Source: a virus. From it: a stretch of DNA of 30,753 nt. Position numbers and translations under genes: made by a program. Below are positions 12,545 to 29,771 of the stretch, in pieces. How positions within the stretch are numbered: the first letter of the stretch is position 1; every line of letters starts with the position of its first letter. The notes below the pieces were generated by a model. That model did not search any database. It was not told the DNA's origin and was given only the letters and a program-made list of their open reading frames with translations. The DNA is taken from the IMG/VR virus record IMGVR_UViG_3300017726_000046, positions 1 to 30,753 of that record; one strand, given 5' to 3'.

Positions 12545-12836
12545 ATGGTCACATCCTTTATATAGGATTTGAAATATAAAAAATATTTTTTCACTAAAAT
12601 ATGCCGTAACCGGTGTAACCGTGTAACTTTGGGCAAATTCTCTTTTATATATATAGACTTAGACAGTTACATAAGTGAAAAACAAATATGTAACGTAACC
12701 AGAGTTTATGTAACCTTTAAATCAAAAAGTGCGTTAAGCGGCCTCAGAAATTTTTTTTCAAAAAAATATTTTTCTGGCTATATATAAAGGAAAGCGCTAT
12801 TTTAAGAAAACTATCGTTAATTAACTAGGCTTGAAC
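12545..12836. other. AT-rich gap with GTAAC elements
   Basis: No gene is supported in this interval. It is very AT-rich and holds GTAAC at 12606, 12615, 12623, 12690, 12695 and 12720 plus inverted GTTAC at 12666, several extended to TGTAACC. Tracts of A and T, TATATATA runs and an imperfect A/T hairpin near 12747-12778 follow, just before the terS gene. It could be a replication origin with iterons, a packaging start site near terS or a strong regulated promoter; the sequence does not decide. Confidence 0.5.
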
Positions 12837-13472
12837 ATGGCAAAGAAACCACTTCCAAAATCTGTACCGGTCAAGAAAAAAAGGGGCGTGGGGCAGCCCA
12901 GAGCAACAAAGGATCGACCGCTAACACGGAAGCAGGAACTTTTTGTAAAAGAGTTGGTTTCTAAAGACGGCCAGATTACAATGCGTGAAGCAGCAATTAA
13001 CGCAGGATATCCTGCGGGGTCTGCACATACCCGAGCATACGAGATGACAAACCCACATATCTGTCCCCACGTGGTGGCAGCTATTAAAGCATATCGTGAT
13101 GAGCTCGACGAAAAGTATGGCATTAATTATCGAAGACATATCCGTGATCTGCAAACGATACGTGATATGGCTTTGCAGAACGGGGCTTACTCGGCAGCCG
13201 TTCAAGCGGAGTATAGACGGGGGCAAGCACAAGGCGACATCTATGTCAGCAAGAGCGAGATACGTCACGGCAGCATTGACTCTATGAGCAAAGAAGACGT
13301 GATGAAGGCGCTAGAGGAGATTAAACAGACTTATGCCCCAGTCACTATCGACATTACTCCCGAAGGAGAGGACAATTCCCAGAACCGCGCAAAAGCGCGA
13401 AGCCGCATTGTGGCAACAGATGAAGAAGGGGATGGAGAAGAGTTCGAGGAAGATCACCGCAACACGGCTTGA
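12837..13472 (+). CDS. terS: Terminase small subunit
   Basis: This 211-residue protein should recognise the packaging site and hand DNA to the large terminase. A basic N-terminal tail (1-25) precedes a helix-turn-helix region LTRKQELFVKELVSKDGQ, REAAINAGYPAGSAHTRAYEM, the usual TerS DNA-binding layout. A helical oligomerisation region with YRRHIRDLQTIRDMALQNG follows, and then an acidic C-terminal tail (DEEGDGEEFEED). The ATG at 12837 is used rather than the TTG two codons upstream. Unusually, the large subunit lies 4.5 kb away. Its last 98 bases or more overlap the nuclease gene in another frame. Confidence 0.82.
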   Translation: MAKKPLPKSVPVKKKRGVGQPRATKDRPLTRKQELFVKELVSKDGQITMREAAINAGYPAGSAHTRAYEMTNPHICPHVVAAIKAYRDELDEKYGINYRRHIRDLQTIRDMALQNGAYSAAVQAEYRRGQAQGDIYVSKSEIRHGSIDSMSKEDVMKALEEIKQTYAPVTIDITPEGEDNSQNRAKARSRIVATDEEGDGEEFEEDHRNTA

Positions 13473-15069: not shown

Positions 15070-16260
15070 ATGACTTATCAAACAAACGCCTTCGCGCATG
15101 GCATCGGAAACAGCGCAGTATCTTCACAATGGTTTTCACGCCCCGACGATCAAAAGTTTTTGTCGCTTGATGCAATGCTAAACTTTAAAAAGACGGACGC
15201 CCGCCAGATGACAAGCCGCACCGTTGACACGCACAAGATCAAAATTGTGGGAGACGTTGACCCCGAAAACCCCAGCCGCGGCGATATCTTTATTGAATAC
15301 ACCGATGACGACCGGCGCGAGCATTTAAACACCCCAACCAATTGGAGCTTTGGACAATTGTCCCAACTTGCGGGGGCACCGTCAGGTTATTTGCGAGACT
15401 TACCCGCACCCATTGCGGCGGACTGTATTCAATGGGGTTTGAAACATAACCGCGGCAAAGAATTGATTAAAGTTTTCGGGCAACAAAACGAGGGCGGCGA
15501 ACTGCGAGCGGCAACCGGTCCCGATTATGGCCGCATTTATGACTGGGAAATTTTAGAACCAATCAAACAATTGGTTGACGCATCCGGCGGACAATGGAAA
15601 ATCCCGGGCATGATGACCGGCAGCCGCAACGGTCTGGCCGTTTATGATCCAGACGTGCCGGTAAGTTTGGAAACGACTACCTTGTTTGCATCCGACCGCG
15701 ACGTATTTGTTTTCCTAGTAGATGACCGCAACCCAATCGAAGTGGGCAAGCTTGCGAACGGCGAGCCCGATTTGATGTTTAGGGGGTTTTACGCATGGAA
15801 CAGCGAAACGGGGAGCAAAACCGCGGGCATTGCTGCAATGTATTTGCGCGGCGTTTGTATGAACCGCAATTTATGGGGCGTTGAAAATTTCCATGAAATT
15901 AAAATCCGGCATACAAAATTTGCGCCGGACCGTTTCGCAGCGGAGGCCCGCCCCGCGTTGCAATCATTTGCGCAGGGAGCGACGTCTACTTTTGTTGAGG
16001 GCGTACAGGCAGCCAAAGCGGCTAAGATAGCCGCAGACGATGACGAGCGGCTTGACTTCCTAACAAAACGAGCAGGCTTGTCTGGGCGCATGGCGAGAGC
16101 AGCAAACGCCCGCCACCTTGCGGAGGAAGGCCGCCCCGTTGAAACGGTTTGGGATGCAGCGCAGGCAATAACCGCCATTGCGCGAGACGTGCCACATCAG
16201 GACAGCCGCATTGAAGTGGAGCGGAAAGCGGGCGCAATTCTCGACAAAGTGGCCGCATAA
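15070..16260 (+). CDS. DUF932 protein (phage/plasmid-like)
   Basis: This 396-residue soluble protein matches the DUF932 family found on plasmids and phages. Visible landmarks are FGQLSQLAGAPSGYLRDLP near residue 95, the central LRAATGPDYGRIYDWEIL, a strand-rich region (DVFVFLVDDRNPIEVG) and RGVCMNRNLWG near 275, then a helical Ala-rich tail. Some relatives are proposed to act in plasmid maintenance or host take-over, but no activity is established. The ATG follows ACTACGGAGAA. It is a one-gene cassette between its own leader and terminator. The gene is GC-rich compared with the replication and structural modules, suggesting a separate history. Confidence 0.85.
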   Translation: MTYQTNAFAHGIGNSAVSSQWFSRPDDQKFLSLDAMLNFKKTDARQMTSRTVDTHKIKIVGDVDPENPSRGDIFIEYTDDDRREHLNTPTNWSFGQLSQLAGAPSGYLRDLPAPIAADCIQWGLKHNRGKELIKVFGQQNEGGELRAATGPDYGRIYDWEILEPIKQLVDASGGQWKIPGMMTGSRNGLAVYDPDVPVSLETTTLFASDRDVFVFLVDDRNPIEVGKLANGEPDLMFRGFYAWNSETGSKTAGIAAMYLRGVCMNRNLWGVENFHEIKIRHTKFAPDRFAAEARPALQSFAQGATSTFVEGVQAAKAAKIAADDDERLDFLTKRAGLSGRMARAANARHLAEEGRPVETVWDAAQAITAIARDVPHQDSRIEVERKAGAILDKVAA

Positions 16261-16402: not shown

Positions 16403-16828
16403 ATGGCACAATCACTATTTGCAGAAAACTTTAGACCCTCAGACATTTTACTTGATCGGGTTTTGAACCCGTTGCGCGATCCGGATATTGGATCATTTAA
16501 ACCGGCGGACATTATCGAAGCTTGCGGAATAATTCCGGATTTCTTTTGCGCCGCTTGTTTGACGCTGGAAAGCTTAGAGCACCCGATGCAACTTGAAGAC
16601 ATAGCCCACCAAATGGATGAGGCTTATCAATATGGCGGGTTTGGGAAATACCCATGGAAGGGCACTGTTGAGCATGACGGCCGCTATATTTCAGACAGTG
16701 AAGACCCCGATTTGTTGCCGCTTGCACGTTTTCAATATGCGGGGTTTTCCTGTTTTGTTTACGATTACGGCGTGACCGCAATCATGGACAACATGACCGG
16801 CCGCGCCATGGTTGCGCGGTTTGATTAA
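16403..16828 (+). CDS. Hypothetical acidic protein, first duplicated cassette
   Basis: This 141-residue soluble acidic protein has four cysteines, two of them in FFCAAC. The middle is aromatic-rich (DEAYQYGGFGKYPWKGTVEHDGRY) and the end strand-rich (FSCFVYDYGVTAIMDNMTG). ACTACGGAGG precedes the ATG. No family recognised. It is framed by a promoter/leader and a terminator that are both repeated around the next gene. Confidence 0.75.
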   Translation: MAQSLFAENFRPSDILLDRVLNPLRDPDIGSFKPADIIEACGIIPDFFCAACLTLESLEHPMQLEDIAHQMDEAYQYGGFGKYPWKGTVEHDGRYISDSEDPDLLPLARFQYAGFSCFVYDYGVTAIMDNMTGRAMVARFD

Positions 16829-17381: not shown

Positions 17382-17410
17382 ACAGCCAGCAACACCGACA
17401 AACGACCGAG

Positions 17411-17433
17411 GGCGGCCCCAGTGGCCGCCTTTT
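17411..17433 (+). terminator. Intrinsic terminator, copy 2
   Basis: GGCGGCC (17411-17417), CCAGT, GGCCGCC (17423-17429), TTTT; an exact repeat of the terminator at 16852. Confidence 0.88.
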
Positions 17434-17931
17434 CTTTTGCGCAGTGCTCAACAGTTAAACAAGGCGGGCCCCGCCCCGCGCACCCTTGCCAAAACCTACC
17501 GGCCGCGCCCCGAGGGCCGAGGGCCGAGCCCAGCCCGCCGCAGTTACCGCACCGGCAGCCGCCGCCCAGAACCGCGCCGCAGCTGCACGACGCAACGCCG
17601 CCGGACCGCGAACCGCGAGCACCGGCCCGCATTTAATTATTACCGGCTGGACCGCCCGCAACCCGTCGCTTGCGCCCAGCGGGCAAAAGTTAATTATTTA
17701 CTGGGTTGAGCACCGCGCCCCAACCGCCAAACCCCACAAAATAAGGGCAGGGGCCCCCGCATATCGGGTCAAAAGCCGCGATTTTTGGCCGAAAATCCGC
17801 GCAAAATCGACCGCGGCCCCGCCGCCTCGTACCGAAGGCTAGGGCCATGTTTCTCACAAATATTACAGCGTTATTTGCTACGGGTACTAACTGTTGTATA
17901 TTAACGCTTATAATCGCATATATATTGTGCT
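17434..17931. other. C-rich non-coding gap before terL
   Basis: About 400 bases up to about 17840 are strongly GC-rich with more C than G on this strand; for example line 17521-17580 has 30 C and 19 G. Frames are open only because stop codons are rare here, and none has a convincing start and ribosome-binding site. Short repeats such as GAGGGCC and TTAATTATT are visible. The last 90 bases become AT-rich and include ATCGCATA (17913-17920). Possible roles are a packaging site, a replication origin or a decayed insert. Confidence 0.5.
17912..17920 (+). promoter_or_regulatory. AATCGCATA motif upstream of parS and terL
   Basis: A further copy of the accessory-region motif, next to TATAAT (17909-17914), in the terL leader. 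No good -35 was found. Confidence 0.4.
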
Positions 17932-17949
17932 ATGTTTCACGTGAAACAT
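17932..17949. promoter_or_regulatory. Perfect parS (ParB-binding) site
   Basis: ATGTTTCACGTGAAACAT is a perfect 18-base palindrome. Its inner 16 bases, TGTTTCACGTGAAACA (17933-17948), are identical to the parS consensus bound by chromosomal ParB (Spo0J) across many bacteria, including alphaproteobacteria. It lies 38 bases before the proposed terL start, in the non-coding leader. No parA or parB gene is in the window, so any ParB would come from the host or from outside the window. Confidence 0.85.
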
Positions 17950-17987
17950 TTTGCGTAAACTGCGTGTCAAAAGTTACAGGGGCCCCT

Positions 17988-19451
17988 ATGAATGTAGCCA
18001 TGAACCCGGCACTAGATGAGAAAAGATTGAAGCTTGAGCTCCGGCTCGCGCAGCTTGAAAAGAACGAGAAGTGCCAAGAAGATTTTTTAACTTTTGTAAA
18101 AACAGTTTGGCCCGATTTTATCGCGGGCCGTCATCACCGGATCATTGCTGAAAAGCTGGAAAGGGTGGCCCGTGGTGAGTTAAAGCGTTTGATAATTAAC
18201 ATGGCCCCGCGGCACACGAAGAGTGAGTTTGCGTCTTTTTTGTTTCCTGCTTGGTTCATGGGCCGTGATCCGAAAAAGAAGATTATTCAGGCGACCCACA
18301 CGACGGAATTGGCTGTTGGTTTTGGTCGTAAGACGAAGAATTTATTGGAGAGTGATGAGTATAAAGAGATATTTCCGGAGGTTAAACTTGCTGTTGATTC
18401 GAAGGCATCTGGACGTTGGGACACGAATAAGGGTGGTATGTATTATGCAGTGGGCGTTGGTAGTAATTTGGCTGGTCGTGGCGGTGACTTGGTAATTATT
18501 GATGACCCTCATTCTGAGCAGACGGCTATGAGTAATAGTGGTTTTGACGATGCTTGGGATTGGTATACTGGGGGCCCCCGACAACGTTTACAGCCGGGTG
18601 GTAGTATTGTTTTGGTTCAGACGCGTTGGTCTGAGAAGGACATGACGGGTCAGTTATTGAGGGCGATGGCTAAAGACCCGTTAGCGGATCAGTGGGAGGT
18701 TGTTGAGTTACCGGCTATTTTTGAGGATGGGACTCCGTGTTGGCCTGAGTTTTGGAGTTTGGAAGATTTAACCGCGGTCCGCGCATCTATTCCACCGGGC
18801 AAGTGGAACGCGCAGTATCAGCAAAATCCTACTGGTGAGGAGAATGCGATTATTCCGCGAGAGTGGTGGCGGACGTGGGAGAAGGATCGGGTTCCGCAGT
18901 TGGAGTATGTTATTCAGAGTTATGATACGGCGTTTAGCAAGCGGGAGACTGCGGATTATTCAGCTATTACGACTTGGGGTGTATTTTATCCGAACGAGGG
19001 TGGTAGTGGTCCGAATTTAATATTGTTGGATAGTAAGAAGGGTCGTTGGGATTTTCCTGAGTTAAAGAATTTGGCTTTGGAGGAGTATCAGTTTTGGGAC
19101 CCCGACACGGTAATTGTTGAGGCGAAGGCGAGTGGTATGCCTTTGACGCAGGAGTTGAGGCAGATGGGTATTCCGGTGGTGAATTTTACACCAAGTCGTG
19201 GTAATGATAAGGTGACGCGGGTTCACAGTGTGTCGCCGTTGTTTGAGGCTGGCATGGTTTGGGCCCCTGATGAGACGTTTGCGGATGAGATGATTGAGGA
19301 GGTCGCGGCGTTTCCGAATGGGGAGTATGATGATTTGGTTGATAGTATGACACAGGCATTAATGCGATATCGTCAAGGAAATTTTGTGCAGTTGCCAACA
19401 GATGACTGGGAAGATGATGAAAACTCTGCTAGAGTGAGGGCATATTATTAG
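17988..19451 (+). CDS. terL: Terminase large subunit
   Basis: This 487-residue packaging motor and nuclease has an ATPase domain with a Walker A variant APRHTKS (73-79), Walker B DLVIIDDPHSE (167-177) and a coupling motif QTRWSEKD (211-218). The RNase H-like nuclease has QSYDTAFSKRETADYSA (D313), VIVEAKASG (E378) and EYDDLVDS (D448/D449, D452). The frame is open back to 17847, but that extension reads through the parS palindrome and looks non-coding. ATG 17988 follows AGGGG; ATG 18000 is an alternative. From about 18.2 kb codons end mainly in G or T, unlike the genes to the left. Confidence 0.95.
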   Translation: MNVAMNPALDEKRLKLELRLAQLEKNEKCQEDFLTFVKTVWPDFIAGRHHRIIAEKLERVARGELKRLIINMAPRHTKSEFASFLFPAWFMGRDPKKKIIQATHTTELAVGFGRKTKNLLESDEYKEIFPEVKLAVDSKASGRWDTNKGGMYYAVGVGSNLAGRGGDLVIIDDPHSEQTAMSNSGFDDAWDWYTGGPRQRLQPGGSIVLVQTRWSEKDMTGQLLRAMAKDPLADQWEVVELPAIFEDGTPCWPEFWSLEDLTAVRASIPPGKWNAQYQQNPTGEENAIIPREWWRTWEKDRVPQLEYVIQSYDTAFSKRETADYSAITTWGVFYPNEGGSGPNLILLDSKKGRWDFPELKNLALEEYQFWDPDTVIVEAKASGMPLTQELRQMGIPVVNFTPSRGNDKVTRVHSVSPLFEAGMVWAPDETFADEMIEEVAAFPNGEYDDLVDSMTQALMRYRQGNFVQLPTDDWEDDENSARVRAYY

Positions 19452-19468
19452 ATCGGGAAGGTTTTTTG

Positions 19469-20347
19469 ATGTCTTATGGTAGGTCGGCGGTAAATTTAGG
19501 CGCGGGGGCCCCGGACGCTTATTACATGCAGGAGGGCGGCGATCCTTTTGGGATGCCATTGACTGAGACATCACCGGGCAGTGTTCCGGAATATTTGTAT
19601 GATTTACAGGTTTCGGGTGAGTCTCCTTTGCCGGATGGCACGTTTGTTGAGAACCCGGAAGATTTGGAGGGTGGTTTATCTTCGGTTATTTATGATCGGT
19701 TGATGGGCGACAATGTAACTCGGGATGTGCGTGAGAGTGCTAGGGTTGGCGGTACGCGGACCGAGGCTCTTTATGGGTCTGACCCGAGTTTTATGCAGAC
19801 ATTGATTGAGGAATATAATTATCCTGCGGTTTTTGACGAGGAGTTGGGTGAGCTTGTTATTCCGACGGATCGGACGGAGTTTACGGAGGCGGAGCGTCAT
19901 GCTCGGCCGGGTGGTGAGAAGTATTTACCGACGTATCCTGAGTTAGAGGATGCTCGGGCTCATATGTTGGGCACGGCATTGACGTCTGCGGAGTATGGTC
20001 CGGAGACGGCTATGAAGGCGGGTAATTTTGGCGAGTTCATGGATCGGTTTGCGCCGTTTCCGTTTGGCGGTCAGAATGCGGAAGATGTGGCTATGGACAA
20101 GCGCAACAACGCTGTTGGTGCGATTTTGTTTAAGCAGGCGGGTATTAATGCTACGCCGGAGCAATTAACGCGTATGGTTGACGCGGAAGTATTTAAGCAA
20201 CTAGAGAAGATTATGGGTCGTTCTGAGGATGAGCGGAGTTTTACGTCGCCGCGTGGTGGCCCTGACCTTTTCTTTAATCGCGATGAGCGCGGTTTTTTTG
20301 ATACGACTAGGAACATACTTGGCGCGGGTCGTCCGTATCGTTATTAG
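19469..20347 (+). CDS. Hypothetical protein between terL and portal
   Basis: This 292-residue acidic soluble protein opens with low-complexity Gly/Ser/Pro-rich sequence and has no recognised domain. Segments such as FTEAERHARPGGEKYLPTYP and MDKRNNAVGAILFKQAGINA suggest a helical middle. The ATG at 19469 follows GGGAAGG. Position between terL and portal suggests a packaging or virion-related role (internal or head-completion protein), by context only. The codon bias matches terL, so the two have evolved together. Confidence 0.78.
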   Translation: MSYGRSAVNLGAGAPDAYYMQEGGDPFGMPLTETSPGSVPEYLYDLQVSGESPLPDGTFVENPEDLEGGLSSVIYDRLMGDNVTRDVRESARVGGTRTEALYGSDPSFMQTLIEEYNYPAVFDEELGELVIPTDRTEFTEAERHARPGGEKYLPTYPELEDARAHMLGTALTSAEYGPETAMKAGNFGEFMDRFAPFPFGGQNAEDVAMDKRNNAVGAILFKQAGINATPEQLTRMVDAEVFKQLEKIMGRSEDERSFTSPRGGPDLFFNRDERGFFDTTRNILGAGRPYRY

Positions 20348-20365
20348 CGTATTTAGGAGAAATAC

Positions 20366-22819
20366 ATGGCTGAAGAAAAAAATGGTTACCAAAGTAGTTT
20401 GATGGACACGGGTGTTCCGTCGCAGCTTGATGAGGATGTTTTACGTGATGAGTTGGAGATTGAGTTACCGGATTCTCAAAACATTGTTGAGGCTAATATT
20501 GAAGCGGCGAATGTTGGTGAGATAGAAATTAACCCTACGGAAGATGGTGGGGTTGAGATTGATTTTGAGCCGCAGGATCAGCGCGGCATGTCGGAAGATT
20601 TTTATTCTAATTTGGCGGAAGAGATGCCGGACCGCGAGTTGTCGCGTGTGGCTAATGAGCTTTTAGAAGAGTACGATGCTAACAAGGCGAGCCGTCAGGA
20701 GTGGGAAGATGCTTATTCCAACGGTTTAGATTTGCTTGGGTTTACCTACGAGGAGCGGACGCAGCCATTCCGCGGAGCCTCTGGTGTGACTCATCCATTG
20801 CTTGCCGAGGCGGCGACACAGTTTCAGGCGCAGGCTTTTAATGAATTATTGCCTGCATCGGGTCCCGTTCGTACTGTTGTTATGGGCAAGGAAACGAAGT
20901 CTAAGTACGATCAATCGAAGCGCGTTCAGCAATTTATGAATTATTACATTACGAGTGTAATGGATGATTATACGCCGGACATGGACCAGATGTTGTTTTA
21001 TTTACCTTTGGCGGGTTCGACGTTTAAGAAGACTTATTTTGATGAGACGATGGGTCGTGCGGTATCGAAGTTTGTACCGGCGGAAAACTTGGTTGTGCCG
21101 TATGAGACGTCTGATTTGGACACATGTCCGAATATTACGCAGGCTGTTCGCATGTCGCTCAACGATTTACGCAAGCGTCAGATATCTGGTTTTTACTTGG
21201 ATATTGAGGTTTTGCCATCTCAGCGCGAGTTAAACGAGGTTGAGAGCGAGCTTGATCGCATTGACGGCATGGAGCCCAATCAGCTTGATTATGACTGCAC
21301 CCTTTTGGAATGCCATGTGGATTTGGATTTGGAGGGGTACGAGGAGCTTGACGAAGACGGCGAGCCAACGGGTATTAAGGTCCCTTACATTGTCACTTTG
21401 TCTTTGGACAACGGTCAGGTGTTGTCGATCCGCCGCAACTACTACGAGGATGATCCAGACAAGAAGAAAATACAATACTTTACGCATTTTAAGTTTTTGC
21501 CCGGTTTTGGTTTTTATGGTTTGGGCTTGATACACACGATTGGCGGTCTTTCCCGGACCGCCACGGCGGCACTGCGACAGTTGATCGACGCTGGTACGTT
21601 GTCCAATCTCCCAGCGGGTTTCAAGGCCCGCGGACTACGGATCAGGGATGATGACGATCCATTGCAGCCGGGTGAGTTTCGCGACGTTGACGCGCCCGGT
21701 GGGGCTATTCGAGATAGCCTTATGCCGCTGCCTTTTAAGGGTCCAGATCAAACGCTATTTAACTTGCTTGGTTTTGTTGTTCAGGCGGGTCAGCGGTTCG
21801 CGACCATTACGGATTTGAAGGTTGGCGACGGCAACCAGTCCGCGGCCGTCGGCACAACTATAGCTATGATGGAGCAGGGGACACGCGTTATGAGCGCGGT
21901 TCACAAGCGTTTGCACTACGCGATGCGTCAGGAATTTAAAATTCTTGCTCGGGTTATGTCAGAAAGCTTGCCGCAGGAATATCCTTACTCTGTAGCGGGC
22001 GGTGACGCAACAATCATGCGCGACGACTTTGATGACCGCGTAGACGTCATTCCGGTCAGCAATCCGAACGTATTTAGTCAGTCTCAGCGCATTGTTTTGG
22101 CTCAGACCAAGTTGCAATTGGCGGCGCAGGCCCCTGAGTTGCATAATATGAATGAAGTTTTCCGGGATATGTACGAAGCGATGGGTGTTTCGGACGTTGA
22201 TCGTATTATGAAAACGCTGCCTTCGGACAATCCGGAGCCGATTGATCCGGCGCAAGAGAACATAAATGCGCTTGATACGTTGCCGTTGAAGGCTTTTGAG
22301 GGTCAAAACCACCAAGCACACATTACGGCGCATATGATTTTTGGTTCTACGCCTATGGTTGCGCAGATGCCGAAGGTCGCCATGGATTTGCAGAAGCATA
22401 TTATGGAGCATGTGCAGATTGCGGCAAAAGAACAGGCGGCGGTTGCTTATTTGCAACAGGTTCAGCAACAAGGCGGTCAGCCCGCATCGGACGAACAGAT
22501 GCTGGAAGTGGAGCGCATGACGGCGCAGTTTGTGGCAGAGGGTTTGCAGCAAGTAAAAGATTTGTCTGCACAAATGTCTGGTCAGGGTCCCGACCCGCTT
22601 GTTCAACTCAAAGAGGCAGAGTTGCAGCAAAAAGCGGCCGAGGCACAAGCAGACGATCAATTGGACCAGCAAAAGTTGCAGTTGGACGCGCAAAACCAAG
22701 CGATGCGGTCTTCGCAATTCCAGCAACGTTTGCAATCTCAAGAGCGCCAGACGGCGGCTCGTATCGACGCTGCGCGTGAGCGTGAGCTATTGAAACTTAG
22801 AAGCGGAGGTAATTCCTAA
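20366..22819 (+). CDS. Portal protein
   Basis: This 817-residue protein should form the dodecameric ring through which DNA enters the head. An acidic N-terminal extension of about 90 residues leads into a core with TQPFRGASGVTHPLLAEAA, FNELLPASGPVRTVV, DQMLFYLPLAGSTFKKTYFD and YGLGLIHTIGGLSRTATAAL, typical of long phage portals. The last 130 residues are Gln/Ala-rich with long heptads (QVQQQGGQPASDEQ and so on), a likely C-terminal barrel or coiled coil. ATG 20366 is preceded by AGGAGAAAT. The gene overlaps the next by TAATG. Confidence 0.92.
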   Translation: MAEEKNGYQSSLMDTGVPSQLDEDVLRDELEIELPDSQNIVEANIEAANVGEIEINPTEDGGVEIDFEPQDQRGMSEDFYSNLAEEMPDRELSRVANELLEEYDANKASRQEWEDAYSNGLDLLGFTYEERTQPFRGASGVTHPLLAEAATQFQAQAFNELLPASGPVRTVVMGKETKSKYDQSKRVQQFMNYYITSVMDDYTPDMDQMLFYLPLAGSTFKKTYFDETMGRAVSKFVPAENLVVPYETSDLDTCPNITQAVRMSLNDLRKRQISGFYLDIEVLPSQRELNEVESELDRIDGMEPNQLDYDCTLLECHVDLDLEGYEELDEDGEPTGIKVPYIVTLSLDNGQVLSIRRNYYEDDPDKKKIQYFTHFKFLPGFGFYGLGLIHTIGGLSRTATAALRQLIDAGTLSNLPAGFKARGLRIRDDDDPLQPGEFRDVDAPGGAIRDSLMPLPFKGPDQTLFNLLGFVVQAGQRFATITDLKVGDGNQSAAVGTTIAMMEQGTRVMSAVHKRLHYAMRQEFKILARVMSESLPQEYPYSVAGGDATIMRDDFDDRVDVIPVSNPNVFSQSQRIVLAQTKLQLAAQAPELHNMNEVFRDMYEAMGVSDVDRIMKTLPSDNPEPIDPAQENINALDTLPLKAFEGQNHQAHITAHMIFGSTPMVAQMPKVAMDLQKHIMEHVQIAAKEQAAVAYLQQVQQQGGQPASDEQMLEVERMTAQFVAEGLQQVKDLSAQMSGQGPDPLVQLKEAELQQKAAEAQADDQLDQQKLQLDAQNQAMRSSQFQQRLQSQERQTAARIDAARERELLKLRSGGNS

Positions 22820-29232: not shown

Positions 29233-29265
29233 GCAGTTTTTAATGTATAGTAAAGTTATCCCTGA

Positions 29266-29284
29266 CAGTCGCATTGGGCGACTG
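29266..29284 (+). other. Leader hairpin before the next virion gene
   Basis: CAGTCGC-ATTGG-GCGACTG is a perfect 7-pair stem with no T tract, 26 bases before the start at 29310. It may stabilise the processed 5' end. Confidence 0.5.
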
Positions 29285-29309
29285 ACTTAACCCAAGACAG
29301 GAGTATAAC

Positions 29310-29771
29310 ATGGGTACAACTACTTTTTCTGGTCCGATTAAAGCCGGAACCATCAAAGAAACTACGGGTACAACCCTTGGTTCAAACATCAAAAACACCG
29401 GTAATGTGGTAATGTCTCAGACATTTGCAGCAGATTTATCGGGTGGTGCATTAGCGGCGTCTGTAACAGATGTTGTTATTCCCGCAAATTCTCAAATCAT
29501 TGATTGTGTGATCGACGTTATTACCGCGGCAAGCGGAGCTACCAACTTGAGCGTTGGAGATACTGTCGGCGGTGCAACTTCAATCTTAAACACCTTTGCT
29601 ATTGGAACTACTGCGGGTCGTAAGTATCCCACTACTCAAGCAGGGGCGGCTTTGGCATGGGAAGACACGGGCACAGCGGACATTCGTCTGACTGTAACAA
29701 ACTCCGCCGCAACCTCCGCGGGTGAAGTTCGTGTTACTATTCTGTACGCTCAGAATAATAACCTTGCTTAA
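29310..29771 (+). CDS. Probable capsid-associated beta-rich protein
   Basis: This 153-residue Thr/Ala/Gly-rich, beta-strand protein (VVMSQTFAADLSGGALAASV, then ITAASGATNLSVGDTVGG) lacks cysteine clusters. Such composition is common in phage head decoration and fibre proteins. AGGAGTATAAC precedes the ATG. With the next gene it forms a pair after the capsid terminator. Role by context only. Confidence 0.7.
   Translation: MGTTTFSGPIKAGTIKETTGTTLGSNIKNTGNVVMSQTFAADLSGGALAASVTDVVIPANSQIIDCVIDVITAASGATNLSVGDTVGGATSILNTFAIGTTAGRKYPTTQAGAALAWEDTGTADIRLTVTNSAATSAGEVRVTILYAQNNNLA

Follow-up and report, generated by a model that had tools for sequence, protein, structure and literature searches.

A chromosomal-type parS site upstream of terL in aquatic phages without recognisable partition genes, a probable docking site for host ParB

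Phages of large marine and freshwater groups that have no recognisable partition genes keep an exact chromosomal parS site just before terL, the gene coding for the large terminase subunit. We propose that this parS probably serves the phage as a docking site for the chromosomal ParB protein of its host, a reading drawn from sequence comparison. It is supported by the exact parS sequence, by the selective conservation of its 16 bp, by a tolerance of the chromosomal type at positions 5 and 12, by its occurrence in two or more distant groups of phages, and by the absence of recognisable phage parA or parB genes. The DNA analysed, here called the window, is the whole of the 30,753-base IMG/VR virus record IMGVR_UViG_3300017726_000046.

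The site is an 18-bp perfect palindrome, ATGTTTCACGTGAAACAT, at positions 17932-17949, and holds the consensus 16-mer TGTTTCACGTGAAACA at 17933-17948, which confirms what a preliminary description of this DNA had reported. The 16-mer occurs once, and no further site with three or fewer mismatches is found in the whole window, which holds just one perfect 16-bp palindrome besides parS. When chromosomal-type parS is defined as the 16-bp palindrome TGTTNCACGTGNAACA, the phage sequence is an exact match to the optimal site, and the optimal parS of B. subtilis is the same 16-mer (PMC4333373). At the base composition of the window 7.7e-6 chance copies of the 16-mer are expected, the figure of 7e-6 given previously being correct for a 16-mer specified in advance, and a chance origin is rejected.

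The window carries a tailed-phage gene set made of helicase, primase, family A DNA polymerase, small (TerS) and large (TerL) terminase subunits, portal, endolysin and head proteins. The probable terminase small subunit gene, which is also present in a relative without parS (G014) and so does not track the site, is located at 12831-13472 (+ strand), a DUF932 gene at 15070-16260 (+), and terL, coding for 487 aa (PHROG 38, E 3.8e-111), at 17988-19451 (+). The ATG at 17988 is preceded by an SD-like AGGGG just upstream, and the matches in relatives begin at the same residue. Counting to this ATG gives the 38 bases first described when measured from the end of the 18-mer, and 39 from the 16-mer. A non-coding region of 606 bp (17382-17987) separates the upstream operon from terL, and is the largest gap of the window once an unsupported ORF at 17486-17842 is ignored. 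It is GC-rich up to about 17825 and AT-rich near the presumed promoter and parS. A terminator-like hairpin with a T-rich tail at 17408-17432 (+) would close the upstream operon; this is a pattern match only, and six such matches were found versus 1.5 expected. A -10-like TATAAT at 17909-17914 (+) marks the inferred terL promoter. A mechanical ORF in the terL frame, 17847-19451, crosses parS. Nevertheless, the site most likely lies in a non-coding leader, as originally proposed, because the leaders of the relatives vary in length and lack conservation around it. The leader RNA folded no better than its shuffled versions, and an Rfam search at the parS site gave no match. Elsewhere in the window, the Rfam RNA Mu-gpT-DE (RF03012, 66.5 bits) was found at 29260-29312 (+), directly after the major head gene.

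Homology of TerL, and not the motif, was used to gather the relatives, which fell into four groups with a TerL identity of 87-100% (group A), about 68% (group D), about 62% (group C) and about 30% (group B). Among the 69 group A relatives with enough upstream DNA, 51 carried TGTTYCACGTGRAACA within 900 bp upstream of terL, and the window 16-mer or the chromosomal variant TGTTCCACGTGGAACA was present upstream of terL in these 51 and in parts of the three further groups. Group A sites are usually found 27-62 bp before the ATG in one or two copies, and 79 sites were counted upstream of terL versus 1 elsewhere in 481 kb. The site was present in 22 of 31 members of group D (mostly at 84-115 bp), in 21 of 74 of group C (at 200-202 bp), and within 900 bp in 22 of 74 of group B, where many more sites, grouped in clusters with five members at most, are found 1-2 kb upstream; the queries for these three groups were taken from parS-bearing loci, so that these proportions apply to the surroundings of parS-bearing phages and not to phages at large. 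In group B, 28 of 97 sites fall inside ORFs of at least 90 aa, which may or may not be genes. The same 16-mer therefore recurs at the same place in related phages, where the preliminary description had proposed to look for it, and the outcome named beforehand as counting against it, absence or degeneration in all close relatives, did not occur. On the TerL trees, the presence of parS changes at least 12 times within groups A, C and D together and 3 times in group B, which indicates that it has been repeatedly gained or lost; the many relatives without the site indicate that it is dispensable.

Many of these matches are near-identical metagenome copies, and distinct flanks were therefore counted as well. 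We found 23 distinct parS flanks in group A (plus 13 for the CC/GG version), 77 in group B, 12 in group C and 14 in group D, while any other perfect 16-bp palindrome had three at most, so that parS ranked top in all four groups. Furthermore, 838 permutations of the half-site gave no occurrence in the samples gathered by TerL homology, versus 192 exact copies of parS, and across IMG/VR as a whole 1 stretch contained the reversed palindrome, versus at least 120 for parS. This raw IMG/VR count is not evidence alone, because 30 of the 120 16-mer matches listed (about a quarter) fall in open frames of at least 100 codons, and because one record, G056 (L087; 116,662 bases), looks like a chromosome. 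This high-GC record has 24 sites, nearly all TGTTTCACGTGGAACA, and probably corresponds to an actinobacterial chromosome near oriC misfiled as a virus.

The pattern of conservation is that of a parS site. In group B, the most diverse group, 91 distinct contexts gave about 1.7-2 bits per position in the core and values near zero in the flanks. Core values were equally high in group A except at positions 5 and 12, where the only common changes, T5 to C and A12 to G, are nearly always paired (49 TTTC..GAAA, 34 TTCC..GGAA and 4 mixed variants). We take positions 5 and 12 to be the degenerate positions of chromosomal parS. The 16 bp are thus found above chance and selectively conserved, and by sequence and conservation pattern the palindrome is a true parS.

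Other elements of the terL leaders were also observed. A palindrome of the form AGGGNCCCY (AGGGGCCCCT in the window, about 17976-17987) adjoins or lies near the terL start in groups A, C and D, and GGGNCCC-like elements are present in the leaders of HTVC027P, HTVC023P and 023Pt_psg01. The block TGTTTCTCGCAAATA (window about 17848-17862), which looks like a degenerate parS half, is kept about 80-160 bp before terL in group A leaders with and without parS alike; it was seen upstream of terL in L129, L187, L191 and others, and similar blocks occur in group D. At the start of terL (window 18000-22000) the GC skew leaps to +0.33 and the AT skew goes negative, a change that is weaker in complete relatives. 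The location of parS at a skew-defined replication origin was rejected, as complete relatives have no clear origin pattern despite the GC skew jump at terL.

No ParA or ParB was found in the window, in agreement with the earlier description, and none was recognised in the parS-bearing relatives tested. The models PF02195 (ParB_N), PF17762 (HTH_ParB) and PF13614 (ParA) gave no match in the parS-bearing phages tested with each of them, apart from two sub-threshold ParB-domain matches in the probably chromosomal G056; in control genomes the models matched in 11 to 14 of 14. The tested set included three genomes of 54-57 kb (G002, G008 and G010) whose gene order closes across the contig ends, and near-complete records of groups B, C and D were tested for ParB_N and ParA. 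In the apparently complete G008 (57 kb) the remaining genes are those of helicase and structural proteins, and neither an integrase nor a partition gene was recognised. Consequently, a complete ParABS system with phage-encoded parA and parB was not found in the near-complete parS-bearing relatives tested, and with no recognisable phage ParA or ParB the obvious reader is the chromosomal ParB of the host. In principle, the sequence could also be read by a protein in which no ParB domain is recognisable. A ParB_N domain was observed in a relative that has no parS, G014 (L187), at 41950-42144 (-) within a 1056-aa open frame.

ParB is loaded at parS as a sliding, CTP-gated clamp, which recruits ParA as well as SMC and is able to repress genes in the vicinity (PMC7333895, PMC7022226). 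By analogy with this biochemistry, host ParB would load at the phage parS as a CTP clamp and slide onto the adjoining phage DNA, and the phage genome would thereby gain a ParB cluster resembling that of the host origin. During infection, such a cluster might allow the phage DNA to be positioned or segregated within the nucleoid by host ParA, together with SMC, and the late promoter next to the site might be affected incidentally. Positioning or segregation is our leading guess for the benefit to the phage, held tentatively and at somewhat under even chances. The earlier idea of host-ParB recruitment is partly supported, through the site sequence, its recurrence and the lack of recognisable parAB. 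The position before terL need not carry meaning, since no other non-coding gap of the window is as large as this leader.

Among the other explanations, the one that survives best is the control of late genes, in which host ParB at parS would repress the terL promoter at low copy number until replication titrates ParB away and releases it, as a copy-number timer. In 27 of 35 distinct group A leaders, as in the window, the -10-like hexamer is followed 24 nt later by the start of the site, which would then span roughly +12 to +27 of the transcript; the same operator-like spacing is seen in several group D leaders, and the chromosomal ParB of P. aeruginosa represses genes adjacent to parS (PMC7022226). 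However, the group C site precedes a TATAAT by about 75 bp, the group B arrays are found 0.3-2 kb upstream of terL without a fixed -10 spacing, several group A leaders have the site elsewhere relative to the -10, and for most chromosomal ParBs the effect is limited to few neighbouring genes. Because the spacings of groups C and B differ from that of group A, a general loading function fits all the groups better than a fixed operator, and we consider the timer unlikely.

Somewhat less likely is that the replicated phage parS copies act as a sink, stripping ParB from the host origin and blocking segregation or division. The presence of 1-5 sites per genome, multiplied by the phage copy number, and the precedent of SGI1 against IncC plasmids (PMC10954446) are in line with this, yet a sink predicts many sites placed anywhere, and most genomes of groups A, C and D hold one or two at a fixed place. 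We give still less credit to a mark for packaging or DNA condensation, where ParB and SMC loaded beside terL would organise concatemers or the pac region. All four groups have sites within about 2 kb upstream of terL, and the assemblies break at differing points, consistent with circular permutation. On the other hand, pac sites often lie in terS, which is 4.5 kb away from parS in the window, and the position of the site may merely reflect the non-coding space on offer.

The operator of an unrelated phage regulator, equal to parS by coincidence, is the least probable explanation, in spite of the promoter location of the site and its co-occurrence with the DUF932 gene in group A, since an identity over 16 bp with matching degeneracy at positions 5 and 12, in phages whose TerL is only about 30% identical, is hard to obtain by chance. 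DUF932 itself was rejected as a cognate factor: every group A relative with parS and with the region covered has the gene and six relatives without parS lack it, but this coupling fails outside group A, the gene being missing from parS-bearing genomes of groups B and C and present in phages without parS.

Docking of host ParB can be compared with several known systems. SGI1 carries parS copies read by the ParB of IncC plasmids, by which it gains stability and destabilises the plasmid (PMC10954446). SGI1 is the nearest known case, a mobile element whose parS copies are read by the ParB of another replicon, as is proposed here for the phages; it differs in being an integrative element that targets a plasmid ParB, whereas here the site is the chromosomal consensus and the phages have no recognised lysogeny genes. 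The phage copies are identical to the general chromosomal consensus, a comparison made in place of one with an identified host. The parS of chromosomal ParABS in B. subtilis (PMC4333373) shares the same 16 bp and the same apparent degeneracy, and its clusters are matched by those of group B, but the phage copy is found beside terL rather than oriC and without parAB. Phages P1, N15 and the cyanophage Mic1 likewise have a partition site, but they encode their own ParA and ParB with a different parS (for Mic1, PMC7156551), and no such proteins were recognised here. KorB and VirB (PMC11790492, PMC10676424) are also ParB-family proteins at sites near promoters, but they are plasmid-encoded regulators with sites of their own. 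No description of a lone chromosomal parS in phages, or of host-ParB capture by it, was found in the open-access literature, and to that extent the novelty first claimed for the system stands.

The metagenome-assembled bins with a related terL point to Verrucomicrobiota (3), Rhodobacteraceae, Maricaulis and Rhodospirillales, so that Verrucomicrobiota are indicated as often as Alphaproteobacteria, although the binning of phage contigs is unreliable. None of the 16 named phages checked has a clean site. Pelagibacter phage HTVC027P was discarded as a cultured example, because its 15/16 site (position 16412) falls within an open frame with the translation AFHVKHPNN and the resemblance is probably a coincidence of the coding sequence.

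Nearly all bacteria have ParB-parS, so a phage with parS can use this shared machinery as a docking point across many hosts. We consider it likely that phages of at least two distant groups, without recognised lysogeny genes, acquired a chromosomal parS beside terL and load host ParB on it, their DNA becoming a passenger of the segregation machinery, or a timer or sink acting on it. If ParB does load on these genomes, this would be the first case known to us of phages exploiting chromosomal segregation without ParAB of their own, and it would be found in widespread aquatic phages. The phage parS would also allow the effect of ParB on phage DNA to be tested directly, that is, whether the DNA is positioned or silenced, or whether it is ParB that is drained.
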